Positions 44,660 through 62,649 of a stretch of 64,000 nucleotides of DNA are shown here, piece by piece. The position numbers were made by a program, and so were the translations under genes. Source of the DNA: Linanthus parryae (taxonomy: Eukaryota; Streptophyta; Magnoliopsida; Ericales; Polemoniaceae); contig JALGPY010000004.1 in the NCBI GenBank assembly GCA_023055425.1, positions 115,113,504 to 115,177,503 on the forward strand, in the 5' to 3' direction. Under the pieces are notes generated by a model. The model was not told where the DNA came from. It was given only the letters and a program-made list of their open reading frames with translations, and did no database searches. Numbering within the stretch: position 1 is the first letter of the stretch; every line of letters begins with the position of its first letter.

Positions 44660-44917
44660 CCACTCCGTCCCAGCTCTTTCTACCCAAACTGACTTTTGTC
44701 ACTATTCACTTGGTCACTTTGACCCGTTGATTTGAATAGCAAACCGATGTAATTTTTCGATAATTTTTTCATGGTGTTGTAGATTAAAAGTTTCTCTGTA
44801 ATACGGAGAAAAAATTATAAAAAAATCATATTATTTTGCTATCCAAATCACTCGGTCAAAGTGATCCAAATACGAGTCAAAAAGTCAGTTTGGGTAGAAA
44901 GAGCTGGGACGGAGTGG
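44660..44917. mobile_element. Stowaway-like MITE, 258 bp
   Basis: Terminal inverted repeats of about 40 bp (ccactccgtcccagctcttt ... aaagagctgggacggagtgg, extending through ctacccaaactgacttt) with TA on both sides (44658-44659, 44918-44919). The CTCCGTCCC tip and TA target site are typical of Tc1/mariner Stowaway MITEs. AT-rich interior, no ORF. It ends 48 bp before the ATG of the DUF295 gene. Confidence 0.92.
44812..44835 (+). promoter_or_regulatory. TATA-like sequence inside the MITE
   Basis: aaaaattataaaaaaatc lies about 140-150 bp before the ATG at 44966. It could serve as core promoter; position is the only support. Confidence 0.25.
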
Positions 44918-44965
44918 TATACCACACCACAAAGAGTCTCTGTTTTTCCTCTGTTTTTTTTGTCT

Positions 44966-46333
44966 ATGGCGGCGATCATGTGGAATGATCATCTCCCGAA
45001 AGATGTATGGTGGTTAGTCATCAGCAAACTTACCCTGCCCCATCACGTACCCTTCGGCGGCGTGTGCAGACTCTGGAGATCAATGGTTTCAGAATACAGA
45101 AACATCAACATCCCCATCCAAGTACCTGCCCTTGTTATCCCCCGATGCTCCAACACTGCCAACAGCCAAACACGCCAACTCCTAGCCTACCCGGTCGGCA
45201 AACATATCGAAAAGGATGACGGCAATTTGCCCCTTGTATGCATCCCCCATCGTCACCTGTGTCGCGGTTCATACCATGGTTGGCTTGTTTTGGTTACCGA
45301 CGCCATGGACATGTACTTGTATAACCCTCTCACCGGTGCTCGGATTGACCTGCCGCCAGCAAGTTCCCTCCCTAGCCCTGTCATGTCCAAGTGGGACATC
45401 CACAAGGCTTTTTTATCGGCAAGTCCCTCTTCTTCCTCCAAAACCTGCTTTGTATTGGTTTTCTATGGGAATAATGACGAGATTGCTTTTTGTAAAGTTG
45501 GGAACCTTTGTTGGAGATCAATAGATGGCCCTGGACCACAGGTATATGTTGATGCGGTATTCAACACCGACAAGTTTTATATAGTTGACATCGGTGGGAG
45601 GGTTTATGCTTCTGACCTCACAAACACCGATGATGAAGGCATACCCATCGAGGAGCTTGCTATACCTCCCCCGACAAATACTTCTTCTTTGGTGAAAAAG
45701 CGCTACCTTGTGGAGTTAGGAGGTGAATTCCTTCAGATTACCAGAGAAATTGTTTTATCCAGGAATGAACAAGTAGTGCCTAGTAAGGATGATGATGATG
45801 ATGATGATGATGAAGAAGAAGTCCGAGGCATAGTTGCGGAAGGAGAAGGTGGTAATGATGAAAAAGAAGTAGCAGGAGGAGACAATTATGAAGTTGAAGA
45901 AATGGAAGTTAGCGATGTGGAGGATACGCTCGAGGTTGATGATTATGAGAACGATATCCGTAGCGACACTGAGGAGGAGGATGGAATTGAGTTTGAATAC
46001 GACAACAGTTTCTGCAGTGAGCATTTCATTTACCAAACCACTATGTTCAGAGTGTTCAAGTTAGACACAAGTGGTTCCGAGGCCCAGTGGATTGAAGTTA
46101 AAGGCTTGAATGGGGGTGCAGTGTTTATCGGCATGAATCAATCTTTTGCGTTGCCAAGCTCAAAACTCATGGGGTATGAGGGAGACCGGATCCATTACAC
46201 CGATGATACTATTACTTCTCATGGTAACGATATGGGTGTGTTCCACTTAGAGGACTCTAGTTTTAGTCCTCTATACCTTTCCAATTCCCAGTCTGTGAAG
46301 CCACATCCTGTATGGATTACTCTAGTGCAGTGA
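44966..46333 (+). CDS. F-box/DUF295 protein with acidic linker, 455 aa, intact
   Basis: Start set at 44966 (MAAIMWNDHLPKDVWW); the frame is open 35 codons further upstream, but those codons are MITE sequence. F-box at about residues 8-42 (LPKDVWWLVISKLTL, PFGGVCRLWRSMV). Then the first DUF295 part (CRGSYHGWLVLVTDAMDMYL, NPLTGARIDLPPASSLP, YGNNDEIAFCKVGNLCWRSI), an acidic linker at about residues 270-350 rich in Asp/Glu, and the C-terminal part (FRVFKLDTSGSEAQWIEVKG, NGGAVFIGMNQSFALPSS, VKPHPVWITL). The F-box would recruit an SCF ligase; the substrate is unknown. The linker begins with a (GAT)n run of Asp and varies in length between paralogs. Single exon; the closest relative is the truncated copy at 5813. 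Confidence 0.92.
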   Translation: MAAIMWNDHLPKDVWWLVISKLTLPHHVPFGGVCRLWRSMVSEYRNINIPIQVPALVIPRCSNTANSQTRQLLAYPVGKHIEKDDGNLPLVCIPHRHLCRGSYHGWLVLVTDAMDMYLYNPLTGARIDLPPASSLPSPVMSKWDIHKAFLSASPSSSSKTCFVLVFYGNNDEIAFCKVGNLCWRSIDGPGPQVYVDAVFNTDKFYIVDIGGRVYASDLTNTDDEGIPIEELAIPPPTNTSSLVKKRYLVELGGEFLQITREIVLSRNEQVVPSKDDDDDDDDEEEVRGIVAEGEGGNDEKEVAGGDNYEVEEMEVSDVEDTLEVDDYENDIRSDTEEEDGIEFEYDNSFCSEHFIYQTTMFRVFKLDTSGSEAQWIEVKGLNGGAVFIGMNQSFALPSSKLMGYEGDRIHYTDDTITSHGNDMGVFHLEDSSFSPLYLSNSQSVKPHPVWITLVQ

Positions 46334-47815: not shown

Positions 47816-49006
47816 TCAAAGCATTGGGGTAATCCATACAGGGTGTGGCTTCACGGATTCAGAGTTGGTCAGGTACAGAGGACTATAACTGGAGTCCTTT
47901 AAACATAACACGCCCATATCGTAACCAGACCGTAGACTTAATTTCTGACCTTCTGTAGAATCATCGGTGTAATAGATCCGGTCTCCCTCGTAGCCCATCA
48001 GATTCGAACTTGGCAATGAAAAAGATTGATTTGTGCCGATAAACATCGCACCCCCATTCAAGTCCCTGACTTCAATCCACCGCCCCTCGGATGCACTTGT
48101 GTCCATCTTGAATACCCGGAACATACCAGTCTGGTAAATCAAATGCCGTACGTCACTGCAGAAACTATTGTTGTCGTAATCAAATTCATCGCTAGCTTCC
48201 GCTTCTTCATCTTGGTTATGTTGTTCTACTGCTTGAGTCGCTGCTTCTTCATGTTCTTCCTCATTATTTCTGGATATAACAATTTCTCTACAAATCTGAT
48301 ATACTTCGCCATCCAACTCCACAAAGTAGCGCTTCTGCAACTTAGATGTATTTATTGGGGGAGGTATATCAAGCTTGAGGGGTACGTCTTCTTCTTCAGT
48401 GTTCTTGAGGTCGGATGCATAAACCCTCCCGCAGATATCTAGTATAAAAAACTTGCCCATGTTAAATATCCCGTCAACGTAAACCCGAGGTCCAGGACCA
48501 TCTACTAATCTCCAACAAAGGTTCCCCACTTTACAGAAAGCAATCTCGTTATTCCCATAGAAAACCACGACGAAGCAGCATTCAGAGGTTTTGTACGAGG
48601 ACGGACTTGCGGATAAAACAACCCTGTGGATGTTCCACTTTGACATGTCGTTGTCTAGAGGGTTAGGGAGGGAACTAGCCGGCGGCAGGTCAATCCGAGC
48701 ACCGGTGAGAGGGTTATACAAGTAGATATCCATGGCTTCGGTGACCAGGGCAAGCCAACCTTGGTATGAACCGCGACAGAGGTGGCGGTGGGGGATGGGT
48801 AGAGGGGGCAGATCGTCTCGGTCATTATGGATGTTTTTGGCTAGTGGTTCAGGTAGGAGGAGTTGGCGGGTTTGGCCGGTTGTGTTAGAGGTTCCTGGTA
48901 TAACGAGTACCGGTGGAATGTTGGTGCTGCTATATTCGGTCACCACTGATCTCCGCAGTTTGGGTGCGCCGCCTCGGAATGGTGTGTGATGGGGCACGGC
49001 CGCCAT
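47816..49006 (-). CDS. DUF295 protein lacking most of its F-box, 396 aa
   Basis: Open frame from MAAVPHHTPFRGGAPKLRR to VWITPML. Compared with the 455-aa paralog (MAAIMWNDHLPKDVWW ... LPHHVPFGGVCRLWRSMV), about 28 residues between MAA and PHH are missing in frame, which removes the SKP1-contacting first helices of the F-box. The DUF295 part is complete: CRGSYQGWLALVTEAMDIYL, NPLTGARIDLPPASSLP, VVFYGNNEIAFCKVGNL, a shorter acidic linker (EEEHEEAATQAVEQHNQDEE) and FRVFKMDTSASEGRWIEV, GGAMFIGTNQSFSLPSS. Both A and B copies share this start, so the loss came before the duplication. It may not join an SCF complex; function unknown. Confidence 0.88.
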   Translation of the reverse strand: MAAVPHHTPFRGGAPKLRRSVVTEYSSTNIPPVLVIPGTSNTTGQTRQLLLPEPLAKNIHNDRDDLPPLPIPHRHLCRGSYQGWLALVTEAMDIYLYNPLTGARIDLPPASSLPNPLDNDMSKWNIHRVVLSASPSSYKTSECCFVVVFYGNNEIAFCKVGNLCWRLVDGPGPRVYVDGIFNMGKFFILDICGRVYASDLKNTEEEDVPLKLDIPPPINTSKLQKRYFVELDGEVYQICREIVISRNNEEEHEEAATQAVEQHNQDEEAEASDEFDYDNNSFCSDVRHLIYQTGMFRVFKMDTSASEGRWIEVRDLNGGAMFIGTNQSFSLPSSNLMGYEGDRIYYTDDSTEGQKLSLRSGYDMGVLCLKDSSYSPLYLTNSESVKPHPVWITPML

Positions 49007-49429: not shown

Positions 49430-49587
49430 AAAAAAAAACTTGTACCAAAAAGAAAATACTTCTTGAAGAAAATTCATATAATAAGTTAGTGGGTTTCTGC
49501 GTAGACGGGACATTGAGAACAGTATTCCGTTTCTTCCTTTGTGGGCCAGCCTCCGCGACATTCTTGTCCTTCTTCTTCCTCTGCTGG
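49430..49587 (-). pseudogene. DUF1985 gene 3' fragment cut by the gypsy insertion
   Basis: Lys-rich tail text (QQRKKKDKNVAEAGPQRKK) as in the block A DUF1985 gene. Homology with 12890-13025 ends exactly at 49587, where the gypsy LTR begins (ctgctgg then TGTAGATAG). Confidence 0.85.
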
Positions 49588-50211
49588 TGTAGATAGTGCT
49601 TTCTGGACAGGCAGATCTTAGCCACGTGGCAACCATCCAGCACACCATACTGTGCTCCACACACACAGGATCACCATCTGCGCTGATCCACGTGGGGGCT
49701 GCGAGACAGGGCCCTCGCATACCACCACACGGTTGTTGTAGGGACTTAGTGGTTTGGAGGCTAGAGTAAGTCCTGTCGCGCGCGAGCGACAACCAAGCCC
49801 GCGCGCGACCCCTAGTAACTGCTTTTGAGAGATTTGTGGCACGAGCTCCATAAACCCGGTCAACCCGGTCAACCTCGTAACGGTTCCGGTATACGCGGAT
49901 AACGTGCTGTAACGGTCCCTATATACGCGGACGAACGTGCCGTTGTGGTTAAGCTAATTAAGCCGCCATTGATGGGCGCATTAACCACACTACAACGGTC
50001 ACATTCTCTGTTATATATAGATTGTTAACCCTTCCATACAGGGAAAGAACACACCTGAACTACGCGGAAGCTCTGCCAAAATCTTGTCTCTCTCTCATAC
50101 AGTGCTATTGCCTTACTCTCCCCCTACACACAACCCCACACTTCCTGTGTCTTTTCTATCCCCTACTCTTGGTGTATATTGAGTTCTCTCTGCAGGATTC
50201 TCTCGTACACA
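49588..50211 (+). repeat. 5' LTR of gypsy copy 2 (624 bp)
   Basis: TGTAGATAGTGC ... CGTACACA, TG...CA ends, aligned end to end with 2904-3530. TATA-like gttatatatag at 50010-50020. Confidence 0.92.
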
Positions 50212-50250: not shown

Positions 50251-51840
50251 ATGTCTCACGAAGATGATGTCAGTAACAGATCGCCCTCCACGGAGACCAT
50301 CTCAGGAGAGGAGACCCGCCGCACTCCTACAGCCGCCGGTGAAACTCCGACGCTAGAGGCTCTAGATGCTACCATCCAGAATCAGGCGAAGGCTCTCAAA
50401 GCTCAGTCTGCGCAACTGGAACGGATAATGGCTATCATGGGGACTCTTGCCCCAAACCCCGCATCAGCCACTGTCATCTCTCAGGGAGGAGGAGCTTCCA
50501 CCACTCAAGGATTGGGAGTATCAACCACACCCCCTAACCCTAACCTTCAAACTCCACCGACAACGTCACAGTTACCCTCAGTTCAGGGGCAAACAGCTCA
50601 AATATTGCCCCTTGCCACTCACACTCCTCACCCTCCAACTCTGGTACCCAATCCGACCTCACAATACCCCTTGCCTCCTCCATCGGCAACTTGGGGTAAC
50701 GTGAATTCACAATATGTTCCTAGCCCTTCCGCGGCATATGTATCGCCTCCGCCTGCAACAACTCCTCCTCCTGCTGCTGGGGGAAGTGCACCAGAGTGTA
50801 TGACGTCGCTGTAGCGGCGCATAGAAACCATCCTGGCTAATCAACCGTTTGCGGACACCATCATCCCGAAGCTTGACAACAATCCACCTATCCCACGCGA
50901 GATCTACCTCATGCCTAATCCTGCTGGGTACAAGGCTCCTAAATGGGACAATTTTGAAGATGTCAATGGAAACGCCCACGAGCATGTCATGCGTTTCATC
51001 GATGTGATGGGGCCATATGGGGCTGATCCCAAGCTGCTGATGCGTGAGTTCCCGAAGTCCCTTGGGAACGTGGCCTACAAGTGGTACAGGACGCTGGAAG
51101 CCGGATCTGTGAAGACCTGGGACGACATGGTTCAGAAGTTTTACACTAAATTCTTCCAGATGGAAGAAAAGGTGACAATGATTCATCTCTCGCGGATGTA
51201 CCAGAAGCGCGAGGAGGATGGAGTCACATTCATCAAGAAGTTCAGGGCCAAGTCCTTGGAATGCAGAGACGTGATGCTTGAGGGCAGACTCGTGGAGATA
51301 TGTCTGCAGTGCATGCGAGACGAGTACAAAGGTATGCTTATCAACCTGCAAACTCCTACATTTTCGAAGCTGATCGAATGCACAAAGAATATAGAGCCTA
51401 TAGTAGAGAGGTAGAAAAAGAAGCACGCCCCTGAGAGATCCCCGAGCGGGACCACTTTTAAAATTGGGAGGTTCAGCTACAAGAGAGGACGTGAGGCTGA
51501 AGTGAATACGGTCTCGCCCCAAAAGCAGCCAAAGGTCACAAACTTCGATGCGCCACCTCTGCCATGTTCGGTAGAGGAAGCAAGTGACTTGTGCAGACAA
51601 TGGCGTAAAGATGGTATCTTGCCGCCGCTCGAAAGGATACCCTCCAAGGAAATGGTGAGGGACCCAAAGTGGTACGAATGTCACGGAAAGGTCATGCACC
51701 CCACGGCTGACTGTAAGAAGCTCAGAATCATGGTGAGCCGAAAGATGAAAAATGGCGAGCTGATTGTCAGCGACCAGAGGCAGGATGTGCGAAACAATCC
51801 ACTGCCTGCCCATGCGGAGCAAGAGCCGAAGGGCAAATAG
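50251..51840 (+). pseudogene. Gypsy copy 2 gag
   Basis: Starts MSHEDDVSNRSPS. Pro/Thr-rich N-terminal region, TAG at 50812-50814 where copy 1 has CAG (Gln), capsid core (KWDNFEDVNGNAHEHVMRF, KWYRTLEAGSVKTWDDMV), TAG at 51412, then the knuckle CHGKVMHPTADC and a TAG at 51838. Same product as in copy 1. Confidence 0.88.
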
Positions 51841-52798
51841 GTTGCCATGATCACGATAATGGACCTCGAAGAGATTGCGGAAGATGGTCTACCCATCATT
51901 GCCGGAGTCTACAATGAGGAGGATTACAGCATAGACACGGAGGATGAGCGTGCCGATCGGATGAAAGGGTCGCACGGGTTCAGCAGGTTCTTCGACGAAA
52001 TGAACTTTTCGGAAAAATGCCGAAAAGAGATGACAAAAGCAATCCTAAGGATAGCGGAAGACTACGAAGAGGATATTGTGATTTCCAATGGGAAGGTTGT
52101 CAGAGCATCTCGCTCCATGGAAAAGGTCATAACCTTCTCCGCAAGCGACAAGAAGACATATGCGAGCCACCAGAAGCCCTTGTATGTGACAGCAGTAATC
52201 AATGGTGTCGAATTCAAACAAGCATTTGTCGACGGCGGAGCAACAGTTAATGTGGTCCCACTTCACACTTTAAAGCTGGCTGGAATCCCGGAGCAGAAGA
52301 TTGTCAGGCGCCTATCCCCGCTGATGGGATGCGGAAGCGACTCAAGGATGACGATAGGATGGATCCGTTTGGGCGTCCAGATCGGAAAAATCAAATGCTC
52401 AGCCAAATTATATGTCATCAATGCGAACTCTACATATCATATGATCATCGGTCGGGCCTGGATTCATCGCTTCGATGCAATCCCCTCGACGGCTCATCAA
52501 GTGATGAAAGCTATCTGGAACGATATAGTGGTGGAGATACCAGCTTCGGGAAACCCTTTCAATCTGGATGAAGCGCACCTCTCCGAGGCAGTATGGTTCA
52601 CCGAAATGGCAGATGAGCAAACGCCGAGATCGTTCAACCCCACTCCCTTGCCTCGATGGGAGGACATCAAAGATCAGTCACCCACAGGAGTGATGGTGAC
52701 AAGGGAGGAGCCCAAAGAAAAGTCTTCTGCGCAAGAAGAGACACGGCGAATTGCTTCAGCGAAAGAACGTGTACACCCTGAAAAGGATAGCGAAACAT
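51841..52798 (+). pseudogene. Gypsy copy 2 aspartic protease region
   Basis: Acidic lead, then AFVDGGATVNVVPLHTLKLA with the D-G-G active-site segment and MIIGRAWIHRF. Ends at TGA 52798, after which the linker continues in another frame. Confidence 0.85.
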
Positions 52799-52873: not shown

Positions 52874-54480
52874 GTGTCCCCACGTGAGCATGGGGGTATC
52901 CCTGAGAAAATTAATAAAATTGAGCAGGTTATGGAATCGGACAAACCAATACCAGACGCTCCAGAGGAAAAGCTAAAAGAAGCACCCGAATACATGGAGG
53001 ACAAGCCCAAACCGCAAAAGCAGGAGCTGAAGGAGGTATTCCTGAGCCCAAACGAAGGAAAGAAAAGGTCGGTCTTTCTGAGTGCGGACCTCACAAGCGA
53101 GGAGGAGGAAAGATTGCTACAACTTCTGACTGAATACAAAGACGTGTTCGCATGGGAGTACGATGAGATGCTTGGCCTGGACGCGAGCATCACTATGCAC
53201 AGGTTAGATGTGATCCCAGGATCTAAACTGGTAAAGCACAAGGAGCTTTAGGCCGGAGATCAACGTGAAGATCAAGCAAGAAATCGTCAAACTGCTGACT
53301 GCTAAATTCATTGAGCCGAATCACCATCCTACATGGTTGGCCAACATTGTGCCAGTGGTGAAGAAGAATGGGCAGCTTCGCATTTGTGTGGACTTCCGGG
53401 ACCTTAATCGTTTCTGTCCCAAAGAAGACTTTCCACTTCCCAACATTGATCTACTCATAGATTCAACCGCGGGTCATCGCATTTTCAGCTTCATGGACGG
53501 CTTTAGCGGGTACAACCAGATCAAGATGGACCCTGAGGATGCACGAAAAACTGCGTTCATCACGCCAGTGGGAGTCTTCAATTACACGGTTATGCCCTTC
53601 GGACTCAAGAATGCAGGTGCGACTTACTAGCGAGCTATGATGGCCCTGTTCCATGAAATGATGCACAAAGAAGTAGAATTCTATGTTGATGACTTGGTTG
53701 TCAAGTCCAAGGAAGAAAGCGACCACTTGGAGGATCTGCGAAAAGTCTTCGAAAGATGTAGACGTTTCCAGCTAAAGATGAACCCAATGAAATGCGCATT
53801 TGGAGTAACCTCGGGGAAATTCTTGGGATGTGTAATACATCGCCAAGGTATTGAGTCTGATCCCGCAAAAGTATCAGCCATCACCAGCATGACGGCGCCG
53901 CATAACCAAAGTGCTCTGAAGACATTCCTGGGGAAGTTATCTTACCTGCGAAGGTTCATCCCTGCGATCGCAGAAATCACCTTTTGTTTCAGTGATCTTC
54001 TCAAGAAGGATGCTGTGTACGATTGGACCGCAGAGCACGAAACCGCATTCGGAAAGCTAAAGGAATTGCTGACATCGTCGAGGGTCATGATCGCACCGCA
54101 GCTCGGATCGCCACTTTTGCTATACCTTACATCGACAAAGAGGTCTATAGGAGCTCTCTTGGCTCAGGAACATGAAGGGCAAGAAAGGCCAATCTACTAC
54201 ATTTCCCGCATAGTGCAGCCAACAGAATCAAGGTACACGGACATCGAACGTCATTGCCTTGCCCTATTCTTCGTAATAGAAAAGTTAAAACACTATTTTG
54301 CCTCGCATAAAGTGATCGTGATTACAAAGAGTGACCCCATACGGTATCTCTTGACTCACACTTCTCCTGGTGGAAGACTAGCAAAATGGTATATGACCAT
54401 CTCTCAGTACGACATCACATGCGTTCGGCCGCGGGCAATCAAGTCGCAGGCCGTGGCCGATCTGCTAGCACAATTCCCTG
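52874..54480 (+). pseudogene. Gypsy copy 2 reverse transcriptase and RNase H
   Basis: Linker frame to 53251, frameshift, then RT: TWLANIVPVVKKNGQLRICV, DFRDLNRFCPKEDFPLPNID, FMDGFSGYNQIKM and MPFGLKNAGATY. TAG at 53628 where the family has Gln, then the catalytic EFYVDDLVVKS, and a connection segment with LGKLSYLRRFIPAIAE. The classical RNase H follows (LLLYLTSTKRSIGALLAQE, YTDIERHCLALFFVIEKLKHY). Confidence 0.9.
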
Positions 54481-54529
54481 ATAATAGTCATGAGCCCGTG
54501 ATTGAGGAAGAACTGGAGGGGCCTGAAAT

Positions 54530-54884
54530 CTATGCAGTTGAGTTACTTTACTGGACGCTCCATTTCGACGGGTCGTCGACAAGGAAGGGTGGAGGAATTG
54601 GCATAGTCCTGACCAAACCCGATGGAGATGTCATACAGATGTCTACAAAACTCGACTTCGCAGTCACCAACAACGAGGCAGAGTATGAAGCTCTTATCGC
54701 AGGTCTTCGCGCAGCAAGGGCACTAGAAGTAAGCAACTTGACGGTTATGGGGGACTCGAAGCTAATCGTCAAACAAGCCTCGGGCGAGTACGGTTTGAAG
54801 GAGATAAACCTATTGCCCTACCGGACTTTGGTACAGAAGCTGGTGCAACAATTCTGCGATGTCAGGTACGAGCACAAACCCTGA
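54530..54884 (+). pseudogene. Second (archaeal-type) RNase H of the Tat element
   Basis: WTLHFDGSSTRKGGGIGIVL, NNEAEYEALIAGLRAARAL and VMGDSKLIVKQASGEY carry the D, E, D residues of an RNase H1 fold, placed between the pol RNase H and integrase. This extra domain marks the Tat branch. The frame stops with TGA at 54882, just before the expected HADALA motif (54897-54914). Confidence 0.88.
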
Positions 54885-55199
54885 GCAGACAATAGGCATG
54901 CTGATGCTTTGGCCACCCTGGGATCCAAAGTTAGTGCGGATAAGTGTCCCGCGAGAATCTTGATCGAAGTGCGAACGTCCTCGGCGTTGACGGAGGACGC
55001 GTGTGAGGACGAATGCATGGATGATGTAGACTGGAGAAAGGAAATATTGCGTGCTATCGCAGAAGGAACGAGCAACGAAAACTGGGCGTCCACCAAGGGG
55101 TATTGAATACATGACAACACCCTCTACTACAAAGGTCCTGGCGGAATACTCATGCGATGCGTCTCGCAGCAGGAGGGATAAGCGCTGTTAGAAAAGATT

Positions 55200-56594
55200 C
55201 ACCAACATACATGTGGGGAAAGTGAGGTGTCAATGTATCGAAAAGCCCAGAGGTATGGGATTCATTGGCCGGACATGTCAGCGGCCGCGACCCTGATTCA
55301 AGGGAACTGCGAGAGTTGTGCGCTGATCAAAGACTCCTTAGAAATCGCTCTGGTCGATGATGACATGGATTGGAGGAAGCCGCTCCTCGACTTTCTTACG
55401 CAAGGTGTCGAGCCTGAGTCAAGAAAAGAGGCCGAAAAGCTAAAACGAAAAGCAGCTCGTTACGTGGTGCAAGAAGACATACTCTGGCGAAGGGGCCACG
55501 AGGGTAACCTGCTGCGATGCCTAGACAGCAAAGAAGCACATGAGGTGATGGACCTCTCTCACCAAGTGGAACATCAGGGACGTGCGAAGTTATGCAGGCA
55601 GCTCCTCACAGTCGGATACTTTTGGCCCACCATGGAAGCAGATTGCCGCGCTAAAGTAAGAAGATGCCAGGAGTTTCAATTCAAAGGCAACCTAGTACAT
55701 GCTCCTGCCGTAGATCTACATGCGTTGGGAACACCATGGCCGTTCCATACTTGGGCTTTGGATTTTGTTGGCCCTATCCTACCAGCTTCGCATGGGAACC
55801 AGTTTATTCTCACTGCGACCGAATTGTTCACTAAGTGGGTAGAAGCAATACCACTGAAGACAGCAAATGCGCTCGCTGTAGTTCATTTCATCCAAGAGAA
55901 CATCATATAAAGATTTGGGATTCCTAACACAGTTCTCTCGGATAATGGTACCCCCTTCGTCAATCGCCAGGTAGCTGCGAAGCTGGCAGAGTACAACATA
56001 AGGCAGATATGTTCTACCCCCTACTATCCGAAGGGGAATGGTCAAGCGGAGGCAACCAACAAGACGTTGTTGAGAATCTTGAGCAAGATGGTTGCAGACG
56101 ACCACAAGAAATGGGCTGATTCTTTGAACATAGCTTTGTGGGCGTATCGAACTTCTCCAATGACCCCCACAGGAGTCTCTCCATTCCTTTTATGTTATGG
56201 AGCTGAAGCTGTAGTACCTGCGGAGGTAAAAGTCAACTCTGCAAGGTTGGCCTTCCACGCACTATACGAGAATCATTGTGATCATGATTTAGTTCTGTTA
56301 GAAGAAAAGCGGGAGCAGGCTAAGCGAACTAACAAGCAATACCAGGAGAGGATTGCCCGCGCGTACAACAAAACGGTCCAACGCCGAGATTTCGCAGTTG
56401 GGGACCTGGTTCTGCGCGCATCGGACCACTGCATGCGGAAGGCGGCTCACCCAAAATTCGCAGCCAACTGGGAAAGCCCCTTCGAAGTCAAAGAAGTCTT
56501 CGACAGTGGCTACTGTAATATACAAAGGCTACATGGGACGGCCTCAACCCCAAGCTCAGTCAACATGCGCAGGATTAAGAAGTATTATCCTTAA
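55200..56594 (+). pseudogene. Gypsy copy 2 integrase
   Basis: Zinc-binding region altered (HQVEHQGRAKL, GYFWPTMEADC, then RRCQEF where a second Cys is expected). Catalytic core with D in WALDFVGPI, D in VLSDNGTPF and E in GNGQAEATNK. There is a TAA at 55908-55910 between the first two catalytic residues. C-terminal GPY/F-like part (VGDLVLRASDHCMRKAAHPK, FAANWESPFEV) to the stop at 56594. Confidence 0.88.
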
Positions 56595-56814: not shown

Positions 56815-57480
56815 TGCTAAGTCAGCATCACCATGCGAATACAATCTCAACTGATCTACAAGCCTATCCGCCGTGATAGCAGCACCATGCGAATATGATC
56901 TTAACTGATCTACAAGCCTATCCGCCGTGATAGCAGCACCATGCGAATACGATCTCAATTGATCTACAAGCCTATCCGCCGTGATAGCAGCACTATGCGA
57001 ATACGATCTCAATTGATCTACAAGCCTATCTGTCGTGATAGCAGCCCTATGCGAATATGATCTTAAGTGATCTTTAAGCCTATCTGCCATGATAGCAGCC
57101 CTATGCGAATATGATCTTAAGTGATCTTTAAGCCTATCTGCCATGATAGCAGCACTATGAAAATATGATCTTAAGTGATCTTTAAGCCTATCTGCCATGA
57201 TAGAAACACTATGCAAATATGATCTTAAGTGATCTTTAAGCCTATCTGCCATGATAGCAGCACTATGCAAATATGATCTTAAGTGATCTCCAAATCTATC
57301 TGCCATGATAGCAGCATTATGCGAATATGATCTTAAGTGATCTTCAAAACTTATCTGCTGAAATAGCAGCCGTACTTGAGTCTAATCTTAAGTGATTCTC
57401 AAGCCTATCTGCCAAGATAGCCAAGCTATGCAAATGCGATCTCAAACGATCTAAAAACTCATCTGCTAAGATAGCAGTTC
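56815..57480. repeat. 54-bp tandem repeat array in the Tat 3' region
   Basis: About 12 copies of a 54-bp unit (gatctacaagcctatccgcc..gatagcagca..atgcgaatatgatct), for example starting at 56853 and 56907, regular to about 57300 and more diverged to 57480. Two subfamilies (gatctacaagcctatccgccg and gatctttaagcctatctgcca) occupy separate halves. Period 54 is a multiple of three, so the minus strand stays open as 18-residue repeats; I do not treat that as a gene. Confidence 0.92.
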
Positions 57481-58873: not shown

Positions 58874-60485
58874 TCAAAATAAGCCTTTGACCAGGGAGTC
58901 ATCAGGAGTAAACTGAAGTGACAAATTTGTCACTTGCTCCACTTCTCGCTTCAACTGCTCGTAGTTGGCGCTCATTTTATGGAAGAGCTTCACAGCCTCT
59001 TCAGCTTTCTGCTTTTGCTTCTCCACTTTCTGCTCCTCAGCTGCGAGGTTATGGAAGCCGCGCTTCAAATTCACAGCCGCGCGAATCTGGGTGACCCTGT
59101 TGACAAGGTACCCAAAGCCTAGCTTTCCCTGAACTTTGGCTTGAAGGCCTTGGCACATGCTGAAGAGCAATTGCGCACTCTGAGGAGAGATGGTCGCAGG
59201 TGTAGCCGCAGACAGCTGCCCCAAAATCCAGATGCCTCGGTCAAGAACAACCTCCTGTTGAAAGGCTCTATCTCCAGGGACCTCGCGAATGATCGAGGAT
59301 AAGAGAGACGCATTCGGACCAGCCAGTCCACATCAGCTTGCTTCAACCCTAAACAATGATCATTCGTTGTTAGAACATGAAGCTTGTAAATGAAAAGTGC
59401 AAGATGCGAGCAGGAAAAGTGATAACATACCAGTTCCTTCAAGGATCTCGCGCAAAGAAGGAATGCGCGTTGTTGGGGCAGCTGAAGACTGTTCTCGTTC
59501 CATTGATCTTCTATCAGCTGCAAGCTCTAGCTCTTCATAATTGGCAGGAAGGGTATAGGTCGCACCAGGTGCGATCGCAACTCCTACTTGCGAACTCCAA
59601 AAGCTCCATGCTGGAGGAATCACTGGAGGCTCAATCCTTGCTGGAGGCTCAATCCTTGCTGGAGGCTCAATCCTTGCTGGAGGCATGGCAACAGTAGCAG
59701 CTGATGCTCGATTAGGGACGCCTTCAGGTGCAAAAGGCTCATTCGACTCAGGAGCACTCATTTGAACATTCACATTCGCATGTGATCCAACATCTCCCGT
59801 GATCTGATCACGAATCTCAGCCTCAGCAGCATCTGCTTCCATTTCTTCAGTAGCAGCATGGGTATCTTCCTCCATCAGCACGGTATTAGCCTCGACATCA
59901 TCGGAAACTTCGATGACATCCTCTAAGGGCTCTCCTGCATATTCAGCAGCTGCGACGGACTTCTCGATATGAGAACTTGGCACTGGGACATAAGATGCAG
60001 ACGGTTGACTTCTCTGTTCCAACATGGCTTCACCAGCATTACCTGCGACACAATATAGGACGATGTGAGGTAACCTGTAATAAACAATATTTTATTATTT
60101 TTGATAAACCAAGAGCGAGCACCTCCACGCATAGGTGGGATTACAGCATCTCCGTCATATGCTAAGGACACGATACCATGTCCTATTAATGTGTCTTCGT
60201 TAAGCATATCTTTAAGGTGAGCATGACCTGGGGTGCGAAGAAACCAGTCATGATGATGATCGGGTTACTAAGCCTAGACCACCAGCACTGTTCAAATGAT
60301 TACCTGAAGGTTCACCGCACTTGCTTACTAGCCAGCGGCGAATGTCAGCTTTCGATAAGCCATGCTTTAATGCACCAACAATCACATCTCGGTAAGTTAC
60401 CGCAAGATTAAAAATCTCACCTTCGTTGCCGCCTGCGATCTCCTCAAAGTCTGTCTGAGCCTGCTCCAGGGCAGCCGCATCCTCT
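58874..60485 (-). pseudogene. Spliced antisense gene-like structure in the Tat element (at least four exons)
   Basis: Minus strand, proposed exons 60485-60304, 60227-60123, 60042-59431 and 59348-58874. Introns of 76, 80 and 82 bp each have GT...AG ends and are all in phase 1, and the frame stays open across the first three joins. Product: IFNLAVTYRDVIVGALKHG, then GHAHLKDMLNEDT and IPPMRGG, then an acidic Ala/Glu-rich region with a triple PPARIE repeat, then after a frameshift near 59310 a coiled-coil tail (AEEQKVEKQKQKAEEAVKLF) ending at 58874. The 5' end is cut by the nested LTR at 60486. Antisense ORFs before the 3' LTR are known in Tat elements; a captured host gene is the alternative. 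Function unknown. Confidence 0.6.
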
Positions 60486-62649
60486 TGATGCGCAATTTAG
60501 CGTGCTATTCGCAAGTATACGAATCAAGTAATATAGAGAGTATTTTCGACTCGGATTATCGATCCCACAGGGACTTTGCAGGTTTTTCTAGTAATCAGTT
60601 TTAACGAACAGAGTGTAAAAAGGAGGAATATTTTGAGTGTTTGTAACTACGAACTAAGTACTGAACGTAAATAACTGAAACGTAAATATTTTTGTGGAAG
60701 TTTTCTGAATAATCTTAAGTTTGTAAAACTAGGGTTTGAGATACTAGGTCCCGGGATCCCCTAGGGTTTTTCAGATTTTCGTTCTTTGTTTGACATGAAA
60801 ACACACAGCAGTCTCGTTATCCGTGCCACGTACCAATTGTGCAGTATCTTTTCTTTTCCTACACGTTATCACAATCCTGCAGACTGTCGGATTCCTGTTA
60901 AGCTGCCTAAGTCTGCAGTCTCGTTCTAAGGCTGCTAGGGTTTCTAACCTGTCCTGATGGCCCGGGTCAGTTTCTCTCACAGTTGGTCTCACGTTTTTCA
61001 GGCTAGTCCTAACTCCCCTTCGCTAGTCGGCCCATCGGGGCAAGGTGCTAAATTATGTCTTCTCTTCGTAACCCTAACCGGACGCTTTCACCTACCGGCT
61101 CGGGTCTGTAGCAATTCTGGTTCGCGACTCCGATCATGCATAAGCAGTAAAATTCAAAGACAGAATAACTGATAAAGCTGCTGATATTAAGATAATACGA
61201 TCATGAATTCATAGTCAAAACGTAGAACTAATCTCTGAAAACGAAACCCTAGGTTCACCGAGAACCTAGGTAAAAGTTTAGCTACTAAAATTCATAACGT
61301 AAATAACACAGTTTTTGAATGAGAGAGAAGAAGAGCAAACGGGTGTCTTGAATCTGGATTCACGTTTCCGTGCTCTCCGGGGATGCTCCAACTTCTCCTT
61401 CGGTTGTGCTATGTTGTGTTTTTTGTGTATTGTTGATATTCTCAAAACGAGTCTGGACGAGTCTTTAAATAGTGCTGTTTTTCCCGAAAACGCTTGCGCC
61501 AAAATTTACGAAAACTGCCATCGGTCCACCGACTCGGGAAAAAAAGTCAAACTGGCTGCGTATATACGCAGGGTTGCGTATATACTCAAGGCTGCGTATA
61601 TACTCAAGGCTGCGTATATACTCAACCAGGAGCCAAAAATCCACCCACCTCCACCTTCCCTGCCTGCGTATATACGCAAGGCTGCGTATATACGCAAGCA
61701 GGGGGTGGTGGTGGTGGCCCTGCTTGGTCCTTTGGTGGGCCCGGTTGGGTCTCCTGGGTCCCACTCTTCTGCCTGAAATCTCCAGTTTTCCTTCCTCGGT
61801 GTCTTCCTGCTTTCCCGTGTTCCCGTCTTGCGTTTTGACCCGAAACTTATCAAAATTACGAAAATACCCCTGGGTCAATATCGCTCAAAATTCTGTCCAA
61901 TCTTGGCTCTGGCCATAGGAAAACTGCTGACTGAATTTGGGAGACAAAATCTGAACTTGACTCCGGAAACCCGGGCCCGGTGCCAAAATGACCAAAATAC
62001 CCCTAGGCCAAAACTGTCCCGGAAATCGTCACGACCCTGAATTAGCTGCTCATGACTCCAGGCATCGGGAACCGAGACTCCTACTTGGGCGTGTCCTGTC
62101 TGGGACCCACACTTGACAGGAGTCGGTTTTTCGGCCGGACTCCGTTTCAGCATTATAACCTGTTTTCGGAAAGCCCTTGACGTTTCCGTTCTTTTGCCCC
62201 TGGTTTCACTTCAAAATTCCAAGTCAAGCTCAAGATATTGTCAACCGAGCGCATCCTGGTGATTCTCGGTTTTGGCGTTTTCAGCTTCCTCGGTCGGTTT
62301 TCACTGCTCGTTTTTCCTCCAGTCTTTCCGTTTTCCATTCCGCTCTCCCTTGTACCAGTCTCGGTCAAATCCTGCTCCGAGCGTTTTCTACACGTTTCCC
62401 GAGGCGAACCCGGTTCTGTCTCGGCACGCATCCCGATGCACTTTCCGAACCTGTTCCTGAAAAAGCAGGAAAAAACCCGCGATCATATCCAATAAAAGTA
62501 CGAAACATGCAGAAATTCACGAAGAGCAAATAAACGTCTCGTTCCTAAAACTGAGGCTTTCCGAGGGTGAATTCTGGCTAAAACGCGGCTTTCCAGCACA
62601 CATACACATCTTTTCAGGCTATAAAATAACCCCTATTTGGGCGTTATCA
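60486..62649 (-). repeat. 3' LTR of a nested LTR retrotransposon (about 2.16 kb)
   Basis: On the minus strand it begins TGATAACGC (62649) and ends GCGCATCA (60486). The purine tract agtgtgggggtatt lies directly before it at 62650-62663, so this is the 3' LTR and the element continues rightwards out of the window. The left flank cctct (60481-60485) is the expected target-site copy; its partner is not visible. Probably gypsy-type from its ends and large LTR, but no coding part is in the window. It interrupts the first visible exon of the antisense gene. Confidence 0.8.
61555..61700. repeat. Palindromic 18-bp minisatellite in the LTR
   Basis: Units of gctgcgtatatactcaag or gctgcgtatatacgcaag at about 61555, 61574, 61592 and 61610, and again at 61667 and 61681. 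The core tgcgtatatacgca is a perfect 14-bp palindrome. Confidence 0.9.

Follow-up and report, generated by a model that had tools for sequence, protein, structure and literature searches.

The carrier element and the insertion that splits the gene

In the stretch of 64,000 nucleotides of Linanthus parryae DNA analyzed here (the window), positions 58874–60485 lie within an LTR retrotransposon (the carrier), which is present at full length, LTR to LTR, and measures ~15.1 kb when a nested insert is left out (Table 1). The LTR pair is 96.2% identical (14 mismatches over 634 aligned columns), and GCTGG occurs at both outer LTR edges as the target-site duplication. Between the LTRs lie gag, reverse transcriptase (RT), RNase H and integrase, the protease and rve matches being below the Pfam cut-offs. 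RT_RNaseH (83.9 bits) and RVT_3 (56.2 bits) occur in a single open frame (53631–54881). Such a dual RNase H, in which a second, RVT_3-type domain follows the RT-RNase H, is a mark of the Tat clade (PMC9289625). This feature supports the assignment of the carrier to the Tat clade of the Ty3/gypsy elements, be it to Retand, Ogre or another lineage of that clade. When the nested insert is excluded, the internal region is ~13.9 kb long and the distance from pol to the 3′ LTR is ~7.5 kb. Two further observations concern the surroundings of the carrier. The 44 bp before the 5′ LTR (49544–49587) are 86% identical to the 44 bp right after the 3′ LTR (L041:1682–1725), as if the insertion had hit a tandem duplication, and two KIB1-4 beta-propeller (PF03478) genes of opposite orientation lie just upstream, at 44867–46330 (+) and 47819–49006 (−).

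A second LTR element is nested in the carrier. It is ~9,750 bp long and continues beyond the end of the window to L009:6339, and its LTRs of ~2.2 kb are 97.0% identical (21 mismatches in 2,202 columns). When compared with the 14 mismatches in 634 columns of the carrier LTRs, this number fits a younger age of the nested element. In 18 of 19 other copies of the region, the similarity to the window stops at 60445–60494, and the sequence then continues as that found ~9.75 kb further along the chromosome of the window; the nineteenth copy, L025, has a deletion in this breakpoint region. Position 60485, at which the gene had been predicted to start, is the last base of the 5-bp target-site duplication of the nested element, and an end of the gene is therefore ruled out there. 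The first exon of the original prediction is instead the 3′ part of a longer exon (exon C).

Table 1. Features of the carrier, the antisense gene and the nested element. Positions refer to the window unless an L number is given; exon numbers in brackets are those of the original prediction, and splice-site counts are alignment rows.
Feature	Position	Strand	Remarks
5′ LTR of carrier	49588..50211	+	624 bp
gag	50815..51411	+	Retrotrans_gag PF03732, 35.2 bits
Protease-like region of carrier	51841..52797	+	Matches under Pfam cut-offs
RT, RNase H and second RNase H (RVT_3) of carrier	53235..54881	+	Two open pieces
Integrase of carrier	55182..56591	+	Two open pieces; Integrase_H2C2 above cut-off, rve below
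54-bp tandem array	56824..57421		11.1 units; between pol and antisense gene
Exon F (exon 4)	58874..59348	−	Last coding exon; C-terminal region and coiled coil; frame broken here
Intron E	59349..59430	−	82 bp; GT 30/30, AG 29/30
Exon E (exon 3)	59431..60042	−	Acidic; 18-bp PPARIE expansion, private
Intron D	60043..60122	−	80 bp in window, commonest 79 bp; GT 30/30, AG 29/30
Exon D (exon 2)	60123..60227	−	105 nt in window and in 18/19 other copies
Intron C	60228..60303	−	76 bp; GT 28/28, AG 26/28
Exon C, 3′ part (exon 1)	60304..60485	−
Target-site duplication CCTCT of nested element	60481–60485		Second copy at L009:6340–6344
LTR of nested element	60486..62649		Nested element splits exon C of antisense gene
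Rest of exon C, exons B and A (PMD) of window element	L009:6340–9001 and L041		Outside window
3′ LTR of carrier	L041:1045–1678		Outside window; 634 bp

Structure of the antisense gene in the window and in other copies

The genome from which the window comes (1.51 Gb, 121 contigs) was searched at the DNA level with 541 bp of the middle exon as the query. This search gave 3,809 first-look candidates; 40 of these were scored and all matched, one being the window itself. Long stretches were taken around 19 of the 39 other scored copies, and these 19 copies, together with the window and L009 (two partial rows of one element), make up the 21 rows examined for the whole gene. The 30 rows examined for exons D–F consist of the window and 29 of the 39 other copies. 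The copies sampled are those closest to the copy in the window and belong to a single genome.

In the other copies, the antisense gene starts near the 3′ LTR and runs back towards pol, and it consists of six coding exons (A–F) and five short introns (A–E), with ~1,339 codons. The commonest exon lengths are 1881, 511, 471 (or 489), 105, 576 and 476 nt, and the commonest intron lengths are 76, 73, 76, 79 and 82 bp. The length variants of exon C (471 or 489 nt), each common to several copies, preserve the frame. Exon A starts with MAKTKGTK, and the encoded protein opens with a plant mobile domain (PMD); basic and acidic linkers follow, and then a conserved C-terminal region and a coiled coil. What had been described as a conserved-looking N-terminal part lies inside the protein, whose real N-terminus is encoded by the PMD exon located outside the window. 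As the donor of exon A, AAG/GTAAAC fits the frame and the conservation; another candidate, C/GTTAAG (in L010), was dropped. Before the ATG, there is a pyrimidine-rich tract with an AG two bases upstream, and this AG is kept in 13 of 14 copies, which suggests one further, putative intron in the leader of the gene. The gene is flanked by two tracts that are C/T-rich on the antisense strand and purine-rich on the other, one at ~58815–58795 and the second just upstream of the ATG in L010; the latter would be the tract of the putative leader intron.

The three introns first predicted from the window correspond to introns C–E. All have GT–AG ends and are in phase 1, and the predicted junctions (60304/60227, 60123/60042 and 59431/59348) are exactly the flanking exon bases. 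The joined exons had been taken to be open; this is true of the first three, but in the fourth a stop occurs after 75 of the 157 codons of the spliced frame, because exon F of the window is one base short as compared with L011. The coiled coil is present as stated, but in this copy it lies in a frame other than the joined one. The PPARIE motif does form a triple repeat in exon E of the window, but it does so in the window copy only: there, exon E measures 612 nt, as against 576 nt in 18 of the 19 other copies and 567 nt in the remaining one.

Three lesions break the window copy: the nested element, a stop in exon A and the lost frame of exon F. It is a dead fragment of the antisense gene. Exons A–F are spanned by 15 of the 19 other copies (counting L025, in which B and C are deleted), and none of these 15 is open throughout. 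Exon D of L025 is reduced to 71 nt by a deletion, and exon F is irregular in length in L015, L017 and L023.

Variation among the copies and its bearing on coding and splicing

Copies decay after insertion, and singleton variants are therefore near neutral, whereas variants common to several copies mostly arose during the replication of the family. Accordingly, the variants found in at least three of the 21 rows (shared variants) were compared with the singletons over exons A–F, those found in exactly two rows (127 synonymous, 129 nonsynonymous and 6 stop) being excluded. The shared variants comprised 298 synonymous, 139 nonsynonymous and no stop variants, and the singletons comprised 381, 744 and 44, respectively (odds ratio (OR) 4.43, p = 1e-37). 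In the wrong antisense frames, the ORs were 0.75 and 0.50, and in the sense frames they were 0.77, 0.55 and 3.05; the third positions of the sense frame with the OR of 3.05 coincide with the antisense third positions, and this frame has 18 shared stops. The p values of the individual exons were 9e-29 (A), 8e-5 (B), 0.007 (C), 0.45 (D), 0.007 (E) and 1e-5 (F). When exons D–F were examined in the 30 rows, 83 synonymous, 72 nonsynonymous and one stop variant were shared, versus 139, 323 and 21 among the singletons (OR 2.81, p = 5e-8), and the two other same-strand frames gave ORs of 0.88 and 0.96.

A branch-based count using 13 copies, from which eight rows spanning the gene poorly were omitted, gave an N/S ratio on the internal branches that was 0.44 of that on the terminal branches (p = 3e-15). 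Exons C (0.065), D (0.70) and F (0.27) were not significant alone in this count. Recombination between copies is likely, in view of the irregular exon F lengths in L015, L017 and L023 and of the scarcity or absence of shared variants over most of the LTR and in the adjacent 400 bp, and it blurs this test.

Three features were found for the introns. One is that the splice sites are well kept: for introns C–E in the 30 rows, GT is present in 88/88 and AG in 84/88 cases, and for introns A and B, GT is present in 16/17 and 18/19 rows and AG in 17/17 and 19/19 rows (one deleted row omitted for each). The mean conservation of the ten splice dinucleotides is 0.974, as against 0.850 for the 370 other intron dinucleotides (resampling P = 0.001). 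Another is that the shared variants occur in the introns at 0.174 per site, while codon positions 1, 2 and 3 have 0.063, 0.043 and 0.215. The introns differ from positions 1 and 2 combined (p = 2e-14) and show no clear difference from position 3 (p = 0.09). For the singletons, the corresponding values are 0.29 in the introns and 0.29, 0.25 and 0.34 at the three codon positions. The last feature is that in-frame read-through is possible in no copy for introns A–D (0/17, 0/19, 0/19 and 0/20) and in 4 of 20 copies for intron E.

The coding-type pattern of the variants, together with introns varying like third positions, shows that the spliced antisense protein was under purifying selection while the family multiplied. 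Judged from these variants, the purifying selection predates the insertion of the copies. The proposal of a spliced antisense gene in a Tat-clade element is strongly supported by this coding-type selection and by the splice sites conserved across copies. The opposite view, that chance or composition accounts for the open antisense frames and that the introns are chance GT–AG pairs, could draw on the window copy, which is weak evidence when taken alone, its last exon being out of frame and its start missing. However, the selection signal appears in the correct frame and is absent from the other antisense frames, and the splice dinucleotides are kept above the rest of the introns. We regard this view as extremely improbable.

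It is also conceivable that the antisense RNA itself matters and not the protein, for example in a dsRNA-based control of the element, and PMC7264820 considers a dsRNA role for transcripts of this kind. Nevertheless, the conservation tracks codon positions, and no stop is common to three or more rows; neither is predicted by a role of the RNA only, which is thus quite improbable. The RNA could have a role beside the protein.

Relation to known elements, expression and possible role

A Pfam profile search found the PMD (PF10536) in exon A of copy L016 (85.9 bits, E = 4e-24) and in two pieces of exon A of the window element, with a stop between them (48.1 and 38.4 bits); all three matches exceed the Pfam gathering score of 34.9 bits. 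Exons D–F and the 3′ part of exon C in the window gave nothing over any Pfam cut-off, and GA_3, FadA, DUF2968, Ripply, BORCS7, HALZ and CcmH, all below the cut-offs, were rejected. The earlier statement that the protein matches no family therefore applies to the window exons but not to the whole gene, whose first exon encodes the PMD. TRP28 (PF04195) was rejected as the domain of the antisense gene, since it gave no match in nine gene pieces at E up to 1 or in exon A of L016 at E up to 0.01. Used as the query of a protein search, the spliced protein matched none of the 7,990 scored candidates at E up to 0.001. A PMD query was also without a match, and the searched protein collection may therefore hold few plant proteins. 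A PDB sequence search with one PMD piece gave no match, and an AlphaFold2 model of exon A of L016 (mean pLDDT 30.6) was discarded.

Introns and a PMD are found in host genes, and the genome has many PMD matches outside the element family, some with long open frames. These facts would suit a PMD host gene that was captured with its introns, in antisense orientation, only recently, in which case the selection signal would reflect its life in the host and not a service to the element. However, the signal comes from variants separating the element copies, so that the selection took place inside the element family. Moreover, the element PMD is just 18–26% identical to the PMDs of L042, L043, L029, L040 and L034 of the same genome (25–26% to the ORFs of L029, L040 and L034, which have MAIN-like high Pfam scores). 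A recent capture is thus unlikely, while an ancient capture followed by selection within the element is compatible with the explanation preferred here.

Retand elements are known to bear antisense ORFs between pol and the 3′ LTR (PMC11963269). The antisense ORFs of maize Grande (gene23), rice RIRE2 and Silene Retand are described as lying between pol and the 3′ LTR, within a long extra region and with tandem arrays nearby (PMC11963269, PMC7264820), and the antisense coding region of the carrier resembles them in all these respects. The carrier LTRs (624–634 bp) are also inside the Retand range of 315–1,194 given in PMC11963269. On the other hand, the internal region and the distance from pol to the 3′ LTR exceed the respective Retand ranges of 7.4–12.9 kb and 2.9–6.6 kb in the same source. 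TRP28 is reported in 97% of the Retand clusters (PMC11963269) and in 23% of the Retand elements (PMC6317226), whereas the antisense ORF found here has a PMD and lacks a TRP28 match. Furthermore, the Retand ORFs were called by ORF Finder, and the word "intron" is absent from the main text of PMC11963269, whereas the gene found here has five introns. Intronless ORF finding would miss or truncate such genes, and the antisense coding capacity of Tat-clade elements may therefore be underestimated. An examination of antisense and spliced transcripts is called for in PMC7264820.

The PMD itself is found in the extra ORFs of 57% of Ogre elements (PMC6317226), and it is the most frequent non-canonical domain among plant gypsy consensuses (PMC9289625). 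The PMD ORFs of Ogre and other Tat-clade elements are similar to the present gene in that PF10536 occurs in a dual-RNase-H Ty3/gypsy element (PMC6317226, PMC9289625). In the carrier, as in Ogre, the PMD belongs to an extra ORF. The extra ORF of Ogre, however, lies 5′ of gag in sense orientation, whereas the PMD gene described here is antisense, located 3′ of pol and split by introns. The original expectation of something not described was too strong, since both the antisense ORFs of Retand (PMC11963269) and the PMD in Ogre ORFs (PMC6317226) are known. The literature searches turned up no account of a conserved multi-intron antisense PMD gene, whose novelty is provisional. In the deltaretroviruses, HBZ of HTLV-1 and APH-2 of HTLV-2 are likewise encoded by spliced antisense protein genes of a reverse-transcribing element (PMC10186651); this likeness is an analogy of expression only, and no relationship is claimed.

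We consider positions 58874–60485 to represent the 3′ part of an accessory gene, antisense and spliced, that belongs to a Tat-clade Ty3/gypsy retrotransposon, with a probability of about 75%, a figure that covers the gene and its mode of expression. Antisense transcription would be driven by a promoter in or close to the 3′ LTR, and host splicing would remove the introns from the antisense RNA. In L010, the 776 nt that precede the ATG lack the motif TATA[AT]A. Passage of an element through RNA normally costs it its introns. Those of the antisense gene would persist, as the template of reverse transcription is the sense RNA and the splice sites are on the wrong strand there; intron survival by way of a sense-strand replicating RNA fits the data. 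Plant LTR elements are generally without introns, with Ogre and EVADE as exceptions (PMC12786077). When an element that is copied through RNA keeps a five-intron gene under purifying selection, this is strong evidence at the sequence level for expression and splicing of the antisense strand and for a protein of benefit to the element.

With regard to the LTR and the 400 bp near it, an additional observation was made in 15 rows. At L010:6701–7100 and over most of the LTR (L010:7201–7756), the shared variants amount to 0 to 0.07 per site, and the singletons to 0.19–0.34. This gap perhaps reflects a recent common source by recombination, or a constraint, perhaps that of an antisense promoter.

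The protein would act in the nucleus. In the host, the PMD proteins MAIN and MAIL1 work together with PP7L to silence TEs and regulate genes (PMC7156037), and an element-borne PMD could therefore interfere with them or redirect them. MAIN, MAIL1 and their relatives have the same Pfam domain as the element PMD; unlike them, the present gene is borne by an element and has acidic and coiled-coil C-terminal exons. Taking the domain as the sole guide, we tentatively suggest that the product may be a nuclear protein whose PMD mimics or competes with host PMD proteins of the MAIN/MAIL1 kind, thereby easing silencing or tuning the transcription of the element. A bolder version is that the antisense PMD protein imitates the host PMD silencing factors and blocks or redirects them; the gene would then be an anti-silencing gene, expressed only after the host has spliced the antisense RNA, with introns surviving retrotransposition on the strand that is not copied. 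This version is rather doubtful.

Alternatively, the spliced gene may be real and its product may serve the replication cycle, for instance in nuclear import or cDNA integration, and not interfere with the host PMD factors. Roles like those of retroviral accessory proteins are proposed for antisense ORFs in PMC7264820, and the protein of Grande gene23, whose antisense transcription starts from its own promoter, is nuclear (PMC7264820). However, the part that MAIN and MAIL1 play in silencing and gene regulation (PMC7156037) favors a regulatory role a little. Such a replication role is possible but tentative, and we hold it and interference with the host PMD factors to be about equally likely. 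Through its PMD, the element is linked to a host family involved in the silencing of mobile DNA, and the function of the antisense protein is thus directly testable.

Other PMD sequences were also noticed in this genome. Another class consists of long single-frame PMD ORFs, represented by L042:1736–4597 (−; 953 aa) and L043:1984–4377 (+; 797 aa); their PMDs are 18–21% identical to the element PMD, and the C-terminal tail of L042 looks helical. In addition, among the best 117 of 11,793 candidates, dense clusters of PMD matches were found at G000:C57:126.3–127.7 Mb and C46:154.9–155.9 Mb, where long open frames occur, many of them of 500–770 aa.
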